Shown here: in pieces, positions 12,020 to 45,375 of the stretch
How positions within the stretch are numbered: the first letter of the stretch is position 1
How the letters are laid out: every line of letters starts with the position of its first letter
Origin: Leptotrichia sp. oral taxon 847
Lineage (GTDB): Bacteria > Fusobacteriota > Fusobacteriia > Fusobacteriales > Leptotrichiaceae
Assembly: GCF_001553645.1 (NCBI RefSeq)
Contig: NZ_CP014231.1
Span: forward strand, 1,612,001-1,676,000
Reading direction: 5' to 3'
Length of the DNA stretch: 64,000 nucleotides
The notes under the pieces: model-generated
Databases searched by the model: none
Told to the model about the DNA's origin: nothing
The model's input: the letters and a program-made list of their open reading frames with translations, nothing else
Made by a program: the position numbers and the translations under genes

Positions 12020-12394
12020 ATGAATATGTTAGAAAATAAAAAAAGTACAGATACAGATAAAAATATGAATGGAAAAAATATAGAGAAAGAAAATATTGAC
12101 GAAGAAGAAAAAAGAAAAAAAAGAATTTATGAAATTGAAAAAAAACTTGGACGTCACAATGAAAATGAGAAAAAAAATCGAAAAAGAAATAATAAAATTA
12201 TAAAATATTTTGCACTAGCTACAAATATGGTTTATATTTTATCAGTGCCTGTACTTCTTATGCTAGGGTTTTATATGCTTTTAAAAAAGTTTTTATTTAA
12301 AACTGATCAGCCGATAGTATTAGTTATATTGCTTGTGATAGGCGCAGTTTCTGGATATTGGTCTTTGATTAAACAAATTAATAATATAAAGTGA
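12020..12394 (+). CDS. AtpZ-like small membrane protein
   Basis: 124 residues: a charged, Lys/Glu-rich N-terminal half (about 1-60), then two membrane helices (about 64-88 and 97-118) ending in GYWSLIKQI. The two-helix layout, the length and the position right before atpI match AtpZ, a putative Mg2+/Ca2+ channel partner of AtpI in ATP synthase operons. The long basic N-terminus is more extended than usual. Ribosome site GGGAG. Call rests mainly on context plus topology. Confidence 0.6.
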   Translation: MNMLENKKSTDTDKNMNGKNIEKENIDEEEKRKKRIYEIEKKLGRHNENEKKNRKRNNKIIKYFALATNMVYILSVPVLLMLGFYMLLKKFLFKTDQPIVLVILLVIGAVSGYWSLIKQINNIK

Positions 12395-12403
12395 GGAGTA
12401 AAA

Positions 12404-12793
12404 ATGTTTGAAAATATGCCTTGTGAGATAAAAAGAAATTATAAACTTTCAATTTATATTACAATAATTGCATTTTTTATTGGACTTATTTTTAGAATTG
12501 TGGAACTTTACTTTGGTTTTTTTGTTGGGGGAATAATTTCACTAATAAATGTTAGACTTCTTATCTCGGGAATAAATAAGATTTTGTACTTTAAAAATAG
12601 TCCCAAACTGCGTGGAAATTTTGAACTTTGGAAAAGGCTCTTAGTTTTTTGCGTTGGAATGTTTATTGTTGGAAAAGTCAGCCAAAGATATTTTATGGGG
12701 CATGTCTTGACAAACCTTTTATTTACTGGAATTGGATCGACAAATTATAAAATTACGATTATTTTGAATAATTACTTAAAAAAAAAGAAATAA
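12404..12793 (+). CDS. atpI: ATP synthase subunit I
   Basis: A 129-residue protein with four predicted membrane helices (about 16-36, 36-55, 76-96, 98-118), the layout of AtpI, an assembly factor that helps c-ring formation. The conserved-type Gly-rich turn (FFVGGIISLINVRLL) is present. It starts 9 bases after the AtpZ-like gene (GTGAGGAG ribosome site) and is followed by a 240-base gap holding a new promoter for atpB. Confidence 0.75.
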   Translation: MFENMPCEIKRNYKLSIYITIIAFFIGLIFRIVELYFGFFVGGIISLINVRLLISGINKILYFKNSPKLRGNFELWKRLLVFCVGMFIVGKVSQRYFMGHVLTNLLFTGIGSTNYKITIILNNYLKKKK

Positions 12794-14019: not shown

Positions 14020-14265
14020 ATGGCAGCAACAGCAGAAATCATTAATGCAGCAGCATTGTTAGGAGCAGGGATAGCAGCAATAGGAGGAGTTGGAGCAGGA
14101 CTTGGACAAGGGATTGCAACAGGATATGCAGTAGAAGCTATTTCAAGACAACCTGAAGCAAAACAGGACATTATGCAAACGTTGATTACAGGATTGGCAA
14201 TTACTGAATCATCAGCAATTTATGCGTTAGTAATTGCGTTCTTATTGATTTTCTTAAAAGGATAG
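14020..14265 (+). CDS. atpE: F0F1 ATP synthase subunit c (Na+-type signature)
   Basis: 81-residue two-helix c-ring subunit. Helix 1 carries Gln30 in GLGQG, the polar loop is RQPEA, and helix 2 carries Glu63 followed by Ser64, with Tyr68 four residues on (AITESSAIYAL). Gln in helix 1 plus Glu-Ser and the Tyr in helix 2 are the residues that coordinate Na+ in Ilyobacter tartaricus (Q32, E65, S66, Y70), so Na+ rather than H+ coupling is predicted. The position equivalent to V63 there is Ile61, which coordinates through its backbone. Strong ribosome site (CAGGAGG). Confidence 0.95.
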   Translation: MAATAEIINAAALLGAGIAAIGGVGAGLGQGIATGYAVEAISRQPEAKQDIMQTLITGLAITESSAIYALVIAFLLIFLKG

Positions 14266-14289
14266 TTTTTATATTTGTAAAGAAAGGTT

Positions 14290-15717
14290 GTGAGTGTCAT
14301 AGATTTAAAAAAAATAGCAATAGGACTATATTTAATAACATTTTTCAATATATCTTTTGGAGCTGTGTCAAATAACAACAAAACACAAAAAAAAACTGAA
14401 ACCACAAAAGTGAAAACTACTGCTCCAAACAAAGGAACGGTCGCACCAAAAAAAGATGCAGGCGGTAAATCAACAAAAACAAAATCGGTAAATAAACAGG
14501 CGACTTCAGACAAAACAGCTGGAAGTGTACAAAAAAATGAAAAAAAAGTAAATGAAAAAAAAATCACAAAACCACCACAAAAAAGCTCATCTGCAGAAAA
14601 GCCGACATCTGTTAAAACACCAGCAAAAACAGTTGATAAGAAGAAAGAAGTAAAACCAGCATCAAAAAGTGTAACTCCGGCAAGTAGTAAAAAAACTCCA
14701 AAAACAACGGAGAAAAAAGTGGAAACAAAACCAGCACAAAAAAAGTTAAATGACAATAAAAGTACAACTAAACCTTTAGATAAGGGAACTTCTGATAAAA
14801 AAAAACCAGAAAACAAAAAAACCGAAAGTAAAAAAAATGATAATAAGTCGTCTGTAAAAAAAACGACTGAAGGAAAGCCAAATTCTAACAGTGTAAATAA
14901 ATCACCTAGTGTTAAAAATTTGAGCGATATTGAAAAAGATATAAATAAAACTAAGGTTTCAGTTGAAAATGGACTTTCTAATAAAAAAGAAAATGTAAAA
15001 CTTTTAGAAAAATCAAAAAAAATGGTAGATGATAAAATTGAAAAAGACAAGCAAGTTGACAGAGTAAAAATAGATAAAATAACAAAAATGAATTCTGAAA
15101 AGATATTGTCTTTTACTAAAAATTCAGAAGAAATTTTAGCTAGTGCAACTACGGTGTCAACTGAAAATTATAAAATTTTATTTACCGGAGTTAATGAAAT
15201 TAACTCTAGCGAGAATAGTGAAATTACAAAGGCTACTAGATTGGATACAAGTTTTATTGCTGGATTTCAGGTGAAAAATCCGGAAATTGAGCTAGAAAGT
15301 GTAAAAGTTTATTTAGTTTTATCTGAAAAAAGTGAAAAGTTGCTGATTTCGTCAAAAGTTCCAGATAGCAGAGTGAAAAAGGAAAAAGGTAAACCTTTTG
15401 TGGAAGAATGGGCAACAGAAGTTGGTAAAAGTTCTAAAATAAAAGGATTCGGAAGTGAAAAAGACAAAAATCCTATCAGTTGGAACGGAGAATCAGATAT
15501 TGTTGGTTCGGTCAGCTTAAAAAGTTTATTAAAAGATAATAAAATTGATTTAGAAAAAGTTAAAATTTCTGAATTAAAAGATTTATTTGCATTAAGTGAT
15601 AGAAAATATCGCTATTTATTTAAATTTGTGATAAAAGCAAAAGGAAAAGAAGAGGAAGTTATTTTTCAACCTGGTATTTTAAATATAAAATTAACAGGAG
15701 CTAAAAATATAAAATAA
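14290..15717 (+). CDS. Secreted Lys/Thr/Ser/Pro-rich protein inside the atp operon, unknown
   Basis: Unrecognised 475-residue protein between atpE and atpF, where no ATP synthase subunit belongs. GTG start with AGAAAGG just upstream. N-terminal signal peptide (Lys-Lys, then a hydrophobic core IAIGLYLITFFNISFG, likely cut near Gly23-Ala). Residues about 28-215 are a low-complexity region of Lys, Thr, Ser and Pro repeats with very few hydrophobics. A probable helical part follows (about 215-265), then a folded beta-rich C-terminal domain (about 275-475) with text such as ESVKVYLVLSEKSE and YLFKFVIKAKGKEEEV. The basic tract could bind a polyanion such as cell wall or LPS (inference). A large minus-strand ORF over the same region is a shadow of the Lys codons. 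Confidence 0.75.
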   Translation: MSVIDLKKIAIGLYLITFFNISFGAVSNNNKTQKKTETTKVKTTAPNKGTVAPKKDAGGKSTKTKSVNKQATSDKTAGSVQKNEKKVNEKKITKPPQKSSSAEKPTSVKTPAKTVDKKKEVKPASKSVTPASSKKTPKTTEKKVETKPAQKKLNDNKSTTKPLDKGTSDKKKPENKKTESKKNDNKSSVKKTTEGKPNSNSVNKSPSVKNLSDIEKDINKTKVSVENGLSNKKENVKLLEKSKKMVDDKIEKDKQVDRVKIDKITKMNSEKILSFTKNSEEILASATTVSTENYKILFTGVNEINSSENSEITKATRLDTSFIAGFQVKNPEIELESVKVYLVLSEKSEKLLISSKVPDSRVKKEKGKPFVEEWATEVGKSSKIKGFGSEKDKNPISWNGESDIVGSVSLKSLLKDNKIDLEKVKISELKDLFALSDRKYRYLFKFVIKAKGKEEEVIFQPGILNIKLTGAKNIK

Positions 15718-15746
15718 AAAATAGTTCTAAAAAATAAGGAGAAAAA

Positions 15747-16241
15747 ATGAATGAAGGAGCAAAATTAGTAAATATTGATTTTACAATGGCTATTCAGATA
15801 ATAAATTTTTTAGTATTAGTCTATTTTTTCACACGGGCATTTTCAAAAAAGATTGGACAAATTTTGGAAGACAGAAAAAAAATAGCGTTATCAGAAATGG
15901 AAATCGTCGAAAATGAAAAAGAAAAATTGGAAGAAAAAAAGAAAAATATCGAAAAATTAAAAAAAGAATCCAAAAGACGTGCTAATGACATTTTGATAAA
16001 AGCTGAAAGACAAGCTGATGAAAGAAAAGATCAAATCATAAATTTAGCTATGAATAACCGTGAAAGAATGATGATGAAAGCAGAAGCTGATATTGAAAAA
16101 ATGCGGCAAAAAGCTAAATTTGAGTTGCAAAAGGAAGTCGGAGAAATGGCTGTGGACCTTGCAGAAAAAATTATTAAAGAAAATATTGATAAAAATCAAG
16201 ATAAAACGATTGATAAATTTATTGATGGATTAGGAGATTAA
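15747..16241 (+). CDS. atpF: F0F1 ATP synthase subunit b
   Basis: Peripheral stalk subunit, 164 residues: one N-terminal membrane helix (about 13-33, with TMAIQIINFLVLVYFF), then a continuous charged coiled coil (about 40-130) rich in Lys, Glu and Arg, ending in a delta-binding segment (VDLAEKIIKENIDKNQD). Ribosome site AAGGAGAA. It resumes the canonical atp order after the inserted secreted-protein gene. Confidence 0.93.
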   Translation: MNEGAKLVNIDFTMAIQIINFLVLVYFFTRAFSKKIGQILEDRKKIALSEMEIVENEKEKLEEKKKNIEKLKKESKRRANDILIKAERQADERKDQIINLAMNNRERMMMKAEADIEKMRQKAKFELQKEVGEMAVDLAEKIIKENIDKNQDKTIDKFIDGLGD

Positions 16242-23008: not shown

Positions 23009-24030
23009 ATGGAAAATGAAAAAATAAGTGTGAAAACTTGTGGGAAACTTTACATCGCTGGAGAATATTCCGTGCTGAAATGTGGAAATAGTGCTATTAT
23101 AAAAAATGTTGATATCTTCATGAGGGCACGAATAAATTTTTCTAAAACTTCAGAATATCATATATTTTCGGATATGTTCGATTATTCAGCTACACTTGAA
23201 TACGATAAAAATTATTTATTAATTCAGAGTACAATAAAAAATGTAAATGATTTTTTGATTTTAAATGGAATCGATCCTGAAGCAATTGACTTAGAAATAA
23301 CAGGAAAAATGGAAAAAAATGGGAAAAAATACGGAATTGGCTCAAGTGGAAGTGTCGTAGTTTTAGTGATAAAAGCTATGTTTGAGCTGTATTGTAAAAA
23401 ATCGGGGGGGAATTTTTTTCAAAAGAGACAATTTTTAAATTGGCAGCTTATACGTTGTTAAAATTGGGAGATAACGGCTCAATGGGAGATTTAGCTTGTA
23501 TTTCTTACGAAAGTATGATATTTTACACATCTTTTGACAGAAAAAAAATTAAAAAATTTATTGACAAAAAAGATTTAAAAAAAATTTTGAAAATGGATTG
23601 GGGGTACAAAATAGAAAAAATAAAATGCGGAATAAAATGTGAATTTTTAGTTGGGTGGACAAAAAAACCGTCAATTTCAACTGAAATGATTAAAATTGTG
23701 AAATCTTCGATAGATGAAAAATTTTTAAATGAGGTTCAAAATATTGTAAATAATTTAAAAGTGGCCATTGTCAATGGAGAAAAAGAAAATATGAAAAAAT
23801 TAATTACAGAAAATGGAAATATTTTAAAAAATTTAAATAAAAATATTTACAGTCCAGAATTGATAAAACTTGTCAAAGCTTCAGAAGGACTTGATGTGTG
23901 CGCCAAAAGTAGCGGTTCAGGAGGTGGCGACTGTGGAATTGCGTTTTCTTTTGACGAGAATGACAGCAGAGAATTAACTAAAAGATGGGAAAAACTAGGA
24001 ATTGAGACGATATTTCTGGAAAAATTGTAA
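23009..24030 (+). pseudogene. mvaK2: Phosphomevalonate kinase, frame broken at a G7 run
   Basis: GHMP-family kinase that phosphorylates 5-phosphomevalonate in isoprenoid synthesis. The first frame (23009-23461) has the start motif CGKLYIAGEYSVL and the GHMP ATP loop YGIGSSGSVVV. The second frame (to 24030) carries KLGDNGSMGDLAC, VGWTKKPS and the C-terminal GSGGGDCGIA loop. The two overlap in the -1 relation at GGGGGGG (23404-23410). Reading one base back there restores a continuous product (S-G-G-E-F-F-S-K-E-T-I-F-K-L-A-A). All catalytic motifs are intact, so this is a recent or phase-variable change, possible -1 slippage on G-GGG-GGG, or a sequencing error. The mevalonate kinase and decarboxylase genes are not in the window. 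Confidence 0.85.
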
Positions 24031-43911: not shown

Positions 43912-45375
43912 ATGTTTAGTAAAACAAAAAAAATTTTAATTTTAACAATATTTTTTGCAGTTCTGTTGTATGGGGAAGGAGAAGGAACGAGTGAAAAGCA
44001 GGACAGCGGTAGTAGTAAAAGTGAAGCAGTAAAGGTGGTGAAAAGTAGTTTAGATGAAATAGAGCAAGCAACAAATCGTGGAAACAGCACTCATAAGTAC
44101 TCAAAAAAATCATCAAAACATAATAAAAAACATAAAAACAAAAGTGAGTGGAATTCCAAAAATTCTAAAAATACATCTTCGAAAGTATCAGATACATTAA
44201 ATGGCAAAGGTAAAAACTCAAAATCCCAGACAGATTCTTTGACAAAATCGAAAAAAAATGTGAAAATTGTAAAAGCGGTAGAAAAAGAAAAAGAAGGGGA
44301 GTCAAAGTATAACGGAAAAGTCCTAAAATTTATAGCAACAACAGATGGAAAAGTGATAAAAGATGAAGCTTCAAGACAAAAGCATCCAATTGCTTCGCTT
44401 ACAAAAGTTATGAACATTATGGTTGCACTTGACCAGATTGACAAAGGAAAGGTGAGTCTGAATGATAAAGTTTGTTTTACGCCTGATATAGTAAATACAG
44501 GCGGAAGTTGGTTAAATGCAAAAGCGGGGGATTGTTTTTCATTAAGAGATTTACTTCGTGCGGAAATAGTTTACTCTGCCAATAACGCAGCTTATATGGT
44601 TGCTTATCATATTGGAAAAGGAAATCTTGACAATTATGTGAAACTTATGAATGAAAAAGCAAAAGAATTTGGAATGAAAGATACCCAGTATTTCACGCCA
44701 GCAGGACTTCCGACTTCGATGACAAAAAAACAAATGGATATGTCAACAGCGCATGATATGTATTTATTAGGGCGACAAGCGATTAAAGATGAAAGACTTA
44801 GAGAATGGATGAGTGAAAAAGAGCTTGACTTATTAAATGACAAAGGTGAGGAAGTTGTTTATAACAATCGTAATCATTTGCTGGGTCAATTTGGAGTTTT
44901 TGGACTTAAAACAGGATTTCATGAACAAGCTGGATATAATATGATAGTTTCCAGTAAGATAGGAAATCTTGAAATAATTTCAGTTTCGCTTGGAAATAAG
45001 AGTGATGTTGAGAGAACAGAAAGTCAGAAACAGGAATTTTATGCGATAGAAAAAAATCTTGTGCCAATTTACAAGGCGGGACAAGTTGTAGCAAACAAAT
45101 TTAAAATAAAAGATGCTGTAAAGAAAGAAATTACTGGAATTTTAGCTGAAAATGTGTATCAATTGGGAAATACGGACTATAAATTTGAAGTAAAAGATTT
45201 AAAAGTTACGGCAGAAAAAGATGGAATTTCAAAAGGAGATGTAATCGGGAAATTACAAGTTTTGTCAAATGATAATAAAGTTGTAAATACAATTGATATA
45301 GTTGCAACCAATAATTACAAACAGTTGTCATTACTTGGGAAAGTTTTAAGATTTGTAACTTTTGGAATGGCATAA
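43912..45375 (+). CDS. D-alanyl-D-alanine carboxypeptidase (S11)
   Basis: Trims pentapeptides of peptidoglycan; periplasmic. 487 residues: signal peptide (about 1-22), a 100-residue Ser/Lys/Asn-rich linker (about 25-125), then the S11 domain with Ser162-x-x-Lys165 (IASLTK), Ser222-A-Asn224 (YSANNAAY) and the K-T-G box (GLKTGFHEQAGY). A C-terminal PBP5-like beta domain and a hydrophobic end (LLGKVLRFVTFGMA) that may anchor it to the membrane. The basic linker resembles the low-complexity tract of the atp-operon secreted protein. Start ATG with AAAGGAAAG. Confidence 0.9.
   Translation: MFSKTKKILILTIFFAVLLYGEGEGTSEKQDSGSSKSEAVKVVKSSLDEIEQATNRGNSTHKYSKKSSKHNKKHKNKSEWNSKNSKNTSSKVSDTLNGKGKNSKSQTDSLTKSKKNVKIVKAVEKEKEGESKYNGKVLKFIATTDGKVIKDEASRQKHPIASLTKVMNIMVALDQIDKGKVSLNDKVCFTPDIVNTGGSWLNAKAGDCFSLRDLLRAEIVYSANNAAYMVAYHIGKGNLDNYVKLMNEKAKEFGMKDTQYFTPAGLPTSMTKKQMDMSTAHDMYLLGRQAIKDERLREWMSEKELDLLNDKGEEVVYNNRNHLLGQFGVFGLKTGFHEQAGYNMIVSSKIGNLEIISVSLGNKSDVERTESQKQEFYAIEKNLVPIYKAGQVVANKFKIKDAVKKEITGILAENVYQLGNTDYKFEVKDLKVTAEKDGISKGDVIGKLQVLSNDNKVVNTIDIVATNNYKQLSLLGKVLRFVTFGMA

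Follow-up and report, generated by a model that had tools for sequence, protein, structure and literature searches.

An exported protein with a lysine-rich tract, encoded inside the ATP synthase operon of some Leptotrichia species, as a candidate envelope-held passenger

The genes for AtpI and an AtpZ-like protein are those that atp operons usually carry besides the genes for subunits. Both genes are present in the window, that is, the whole 64,000-nucleotide stretch of the genome of Leptotrichia sp. oral taxon 847 (NZ_CP014231.1) that we analysed. Here, the AtpZ-like "gene 1" (12020-12394; PF09527, E 1.3e-05, just under the cut-off) and atpI (12404-12793; PF03899, also under the cut-off) are the first genes of the operon and encode small membrane proteins; they are found in all 13 Leptotrichia species. 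Gene X, the subject of this study, is likewise a non-subunit gene co-localised with atp genes, but its product resembles neither of these proteins in sequence or architecture. Our search of the available literature on atp-operon insertions and on the ATP synthase of Leptotrichia found nothing relevant.

Gene X is an open reading frame on the forward strand (14290-15717, with a GTG start) that encodes an exported protein of 475 residues, and our analysis confirmed exactly these coordinates. It lies between atpE, which encodes subunit c (14020-14265, forward strand; PF00137), and atpF, which encodes subunit b (15747-16241, forward strand; PF00430), and it is separated from them by only 24 and 29 nt, respectively, with all three genes on the same strand. 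Upstream, the order is gene 1, atpI, atpB and atpE; downstream, atpF and atpH are recognised by Pfam, and atpA, atpG, atpD and atpC are evident from the sequence. No forward-strand terminator was found from atpE to atpF, and promoter-like hits across the atpE-X-atpF region come at about the level of shuffled sequence. Thus, the placement of the gene within the operon, with no promoter or terminator of its own, is as the initial annotation described it. The ribosome site that it credited to the gene is a more qualified matter: a weak Shine-Dalgarno-like AAAGG is present (14283-14287, forward strand) and is the same in two related species, referred to here as G005 and G007, but it is poorly spaced. 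Given that it lies just 2 nt before the GTG, translation initiation of X is probably weak; the ribosome site of atpF is an AAGGAG at 15736-15741 (forward strand). The GTG is the sole standard start between an in-frame stop at 14278-14280 and the signal peptide, and G005 and G007 hardly differ from the window around the start; the orthologue in a further species, G001, starts with ATG. Elsewhere in the window, at 23009-24030, two overlapping open reading frames in different frames together resemble a single kinase, which we take to be of the GHMP type (phosphomevalonate kinase-like); this arrangement suggests a frameshift or a sequencing error.

The product of gene X has three parts, of which the first, a signal peptide (residues 1-24; 14290-14361, forward strand), was read from the sequence as MSVIDLKKIAIGLYLITFFNISFG followed by A at the predicted cleavage site, with cleavage predicted after ISFG or one residue further on. 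It is conserved in G005 and G007, and G001 has an analogous one. It is followed by a basic low-complexity tract (residues 28-273; 14371-15108, forward strand), which is present as first proposed but is about 246 residues long rather than about 190. This tract is 28% lysine, has a net charge of +39 and lacks phenylalanine, tryptophan, tyrosine and cysteine; among the orthologues, it varies in sequence as well as in length (164 to 246 residues). In a 464-kb sample consisting of the window and twenty 20-kb stretches of the genome, a simple hydropathy rule classed 67 of 380 open reading frames as non-membrane proteins with signal-peptide-like starts, and the X tract is the most extreme of these 67 in basicity. 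The same genome also encodes, at about 423.5 kb (stretch L117, 3479-4225), a 249-residue protein that is mostly rich in lysine, asparagine and glutamate after a signal-peptide-like start and has no Pfam match. The translation of X contains no cysteine and hence no lipobox.

The third part is a folded C-terminal domain of about 200 residues (residues 274-475; 15109-15714, forward strand), which, like the signal peptide, had been anticipated by the initial annotation. It has no significant sequence match in Pfam, NCBIfam, PHROGs or the PDB. Its AlphaFold model is rich in beta strands (pLDDT 74), as is that of a related Fusobacterium lipoprotein (pLDDT 71); these models are of moderate confidence and were based on 5 to 7 sequences. 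The structure prediction yields a putative immunoglobulin-like beta-sandwich but no specific fold match: the best matches are mostly immunoglobulin-type domains, none of them significant (best E 0.003, none in the PDB with E < 0.001, and TM-scores below 0.5). The MSCRAMM adhesin domains of SdrD, SdrE and UafA appear among these matches, amid generic immunoglobulin folds. They could be taken to mean that X is a surface protein facing the host or neighbouring cells, with its basic tract carrying an adhesin-like domain to the cell surface, and such a role would agree with X being a fast-evolving accessory gene whose distant relatives are lipoproteins that may be surface-exposed. However, the TM-scores to these adhesins are below 0.4, and no outer-membrane anchor, LPXTG motif or autotransporter barrel was seen in the sequence of X, and we consider this role unlikely.

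The domain nevertheless has relatives. It contains a motif, Y-L-F-K-(F/Y)-x-I-K ... E-x-x-I-(Y/F)-Q-P, that is common to a protein of L. hongkongensis and to lipoproteins of other Fusobacteriota. Searched against 98 genomes across the phylum, a five-sequence profile picked out short proteins from two Fusobacteriaceae genomes (loci L098 and L099), and L099 and L098 match profile A1, in which neither is contained, at E-values of 7e-7 and 9e-6, respectively. A decayed 3' remnant of the family was also found in genome G021, away from the atp operon. Candidates in five other genomes (G080, G059, G064, G056 and G023) were rejected as weak matches (E of about 0.001 to 0.006). From sequence comparison, X and its relatives form a small, unnamed family of putative envelope-protein domains in the Fusobacteriota.

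To place the gene in a wider context, we compared its surroundings with atp regions from 12 further Leptotrichia species, 20 further family members and three members of the order; contig ends cut a few of these regions short. X occupies the atpE-atpF junction in 4 of the 13 Leptotrichia species: the window genome (G000), G005, G007 and G001, with orthologues of 443, 393 and 390 residues in the latter three. The initial annotation would have counted against itself a recent insertion, absent from the atp operons of all close relatives; the gene is present at the same place in three further species. X was not found at the junction in the other nine species, nor in the other family and order genomes inspected, all of which keep the neighbouring atp genes. 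Without X, atpE and atpF are 54 to 170 nt apart in the nine Leptotrichia species and 18 to 63 nt apart in the four outgroup genomes measured, and in the four X-less species tested, these spacers hold no remnants of X above shuffled controls.

A FastTree phylogeny of AtpB, AtpF, AtpH and AtpA (842 columns) groups G000, G005 and G007 in one clade, clade A, and places G001 in clade B beside G002-G004, with weak support (0.345). Between G001 and clade A, the C-terminal domains are 53-55% identical. Together with the shared site and architecture, this identity suggests a single entry of X in the ancestor of Leptotrichia, followed by several losses, the number of which is uncertain because the position of G001 within clade B is weakly supported. 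As for the source of the gene, we found no match to X in phage or plasmid records or in viral contigs, no significant PHROGs family, and no convincing terminal repeats at its ends that would point to a mobile element. The two clades also differ in where atpI and the AtpZ-like gene lie. In clade A and in several other genera of the family, these two head the atp operon, whereas in the ten species of clade B (G001-G004, G006 and G008-G012), they lie together but apart from the main operon, for instance at 1.87 Mb versus 0.70 Mb in G001; from this gene order, the operon was split in clade B.

The comparison of rates, performed by NG86 within clade A only (G000, G005 and G007), gave dN/dS values of 0.14-0.18 for the C-terminal domain and 0.34-0.40 for the half containing the signal peptide and the tract, in which large and numerous indels separate the three species. 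From these values and the large indels, the domain is constrained, and the tract is kept mainly for its composition. Given that orthologues occur at the same place in three species and that selection is purifying, X is a real gene with a C-terminal domain under purifying selection. This also bears on the idea that X does little and persists as a passenger because a clean deletion within an essential operon is rare. Its absence from 9 of the 13 species and the decayed relative in G021 would fit such a history, but the reading frame is intact in four species even though the sequences that encode the lysine-rich tract hold 7 to 13 runs of at least seven A, and this, added to the selection on the domain, makes a nearly functionless X improbable.

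The position of the gene naturally raises the question of whether X belongs to the ATP synthase. Subunit c from the window aligns with the Na+ c-ring of Ilyobacter (1yce) at E 5.5e-20, and given that, in our reading of this alignment, the Gln and Glu-Ser of the Na+-type motif are in register, the enzyme is probably of the Na+ type. X could be a clade-restricted periplasmic accessory that stabilises or regulates the enzyme by docking on the periplasmic side of its c-ring or subunit a; were that so, a rotary Na+ motor would have a regulator in the periplasm. In favour of such an accessory, four species from across the genus encode X between the genes for subunits c and b, and no terminator intervenes. 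Nevertheless, a conserved subunit or accessory is expected to be always present with its enzyme, and X is not; the nine species without it have an AtpB 77-79% identical to that of the window, and as X is absent from the junction in these nine and in all other relatives inspected, the ATP synthase does not need it. Furthermore, the domain occurs elsewhere away from atp genes, and X evolves faster than its neighbours: between G000 and G005, the dN/dS of its C-terminal domain is 0.14, versus 0.04 for atpF, 0.06 for atpB and 0.10 for atpH (atpI gives 0.13). The patchy presence, the homologues outside atp operons and the faster evolution thus all argue against an obligate role in the ATP synthase, and we regard an accessory role as very unlikely. 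The more detailed version, a new lineage-specific accessory of the Na+ F-ATP synthase whose immunoglobulin-like domain reaches the c-ring or subunit a from the outer side of the membrane, with a polycationic arm holding it to the wall, is just as hard to credit. The housekeeping function tied to the ATP synthase that was initially suggested is therefore not borne out, and the alternative offered with it, that the position is a conserved accident, agrees better with these data.

Patchy presence and relatives elsewhere suggest, rather, an envelope protein that rides on the operon. The explanation that we favour, with a probability of roughly 55%, is that X is a lineage-restricted periplasmic protein held at the wall or envelope, a passenger of the operon that is not part of the ATP synthase. 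X would leave the cytoplasm through Sec and lose its signal peptide; the polycationic and probably disordered tract would keep it on anionic polymers of the wall or envelope and, reaching across the periplasm, display the beta-sandwich domain, which may bind an envelope partner or ligand. Having presumably entered the atpE-atpF gap in the ancestor of Leptotrichia and been lost from most species, the gene may have been kept in the operon for steady co-transcription combined with modest translation from its weak GTG start. A counterpoint to a mere passenger is that X has been kept in the atp operon in both Leptotrichia clades since they diverged, something that pure accident would not require. 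X would thus be an accessory envelope gene that has long been lodged in a highly conserved operon without joining the enzyme, and it serves as a caution that operon position alone does not give function.

The closest systems for comparison are the relatives of the domain, which would make up a small, Fusobacteriota-restricted periplasmic family defined by its immunoglobulin-like C-terminal domain. The protein of L. hongkongensis JMUB5056 (NZ_AP019846; genome G008, locus L057, 3735-4400, reverse strand; 221 residues) has a signal peptide, as X does, and a homologous C-terminal domain (36-37% identity), but it lacks the basic tract, and its gene lies between fba and yebC rather than in the atp operon; in six other Leptotrichia genomes, fba adjoins yebC with no such gene between them, and the remaining genomes have a different neighbour there. 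More distant are the lipoproteins of a Fusobacterium metagenome-assembled genome (L099, 1906-2502; 198 residues) and of an uncultured Cetobacterium (L098, 4860-5408; 182 residues), which share the domain at 26-32% identity and, unlike X, are not encoded in the atp operon. These two alone have a lipobox (LLTSC, LISSC), where X has a plain signal peptide and a basic tract, and a lipid anchor would thus stand in for the tract. For the tract itself, the best parallel is the S11 DD-carboxypeptidase encoded in the same window (43912-45375; PF00768), which has the second most extreme basic tract of the 464-kb sample, after X. It shares with X the order of signal peptide, basic tract and periplasmic domain, with a tract rich in lysine, serine, asparagine and histidine before a catalytic domain that is unrelated to the C-terminal domain of X, and it is found nearly at full length, tract included, in all 13 Leptotrichia species, as opposed to four for X. 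Given that a peptidoglycan enzyme uses a basic spacer in front of its periplasmic domain, we infer by analogy a similar tethering or spacing role for the tract of X, through which the protein is probably associated with the wall.
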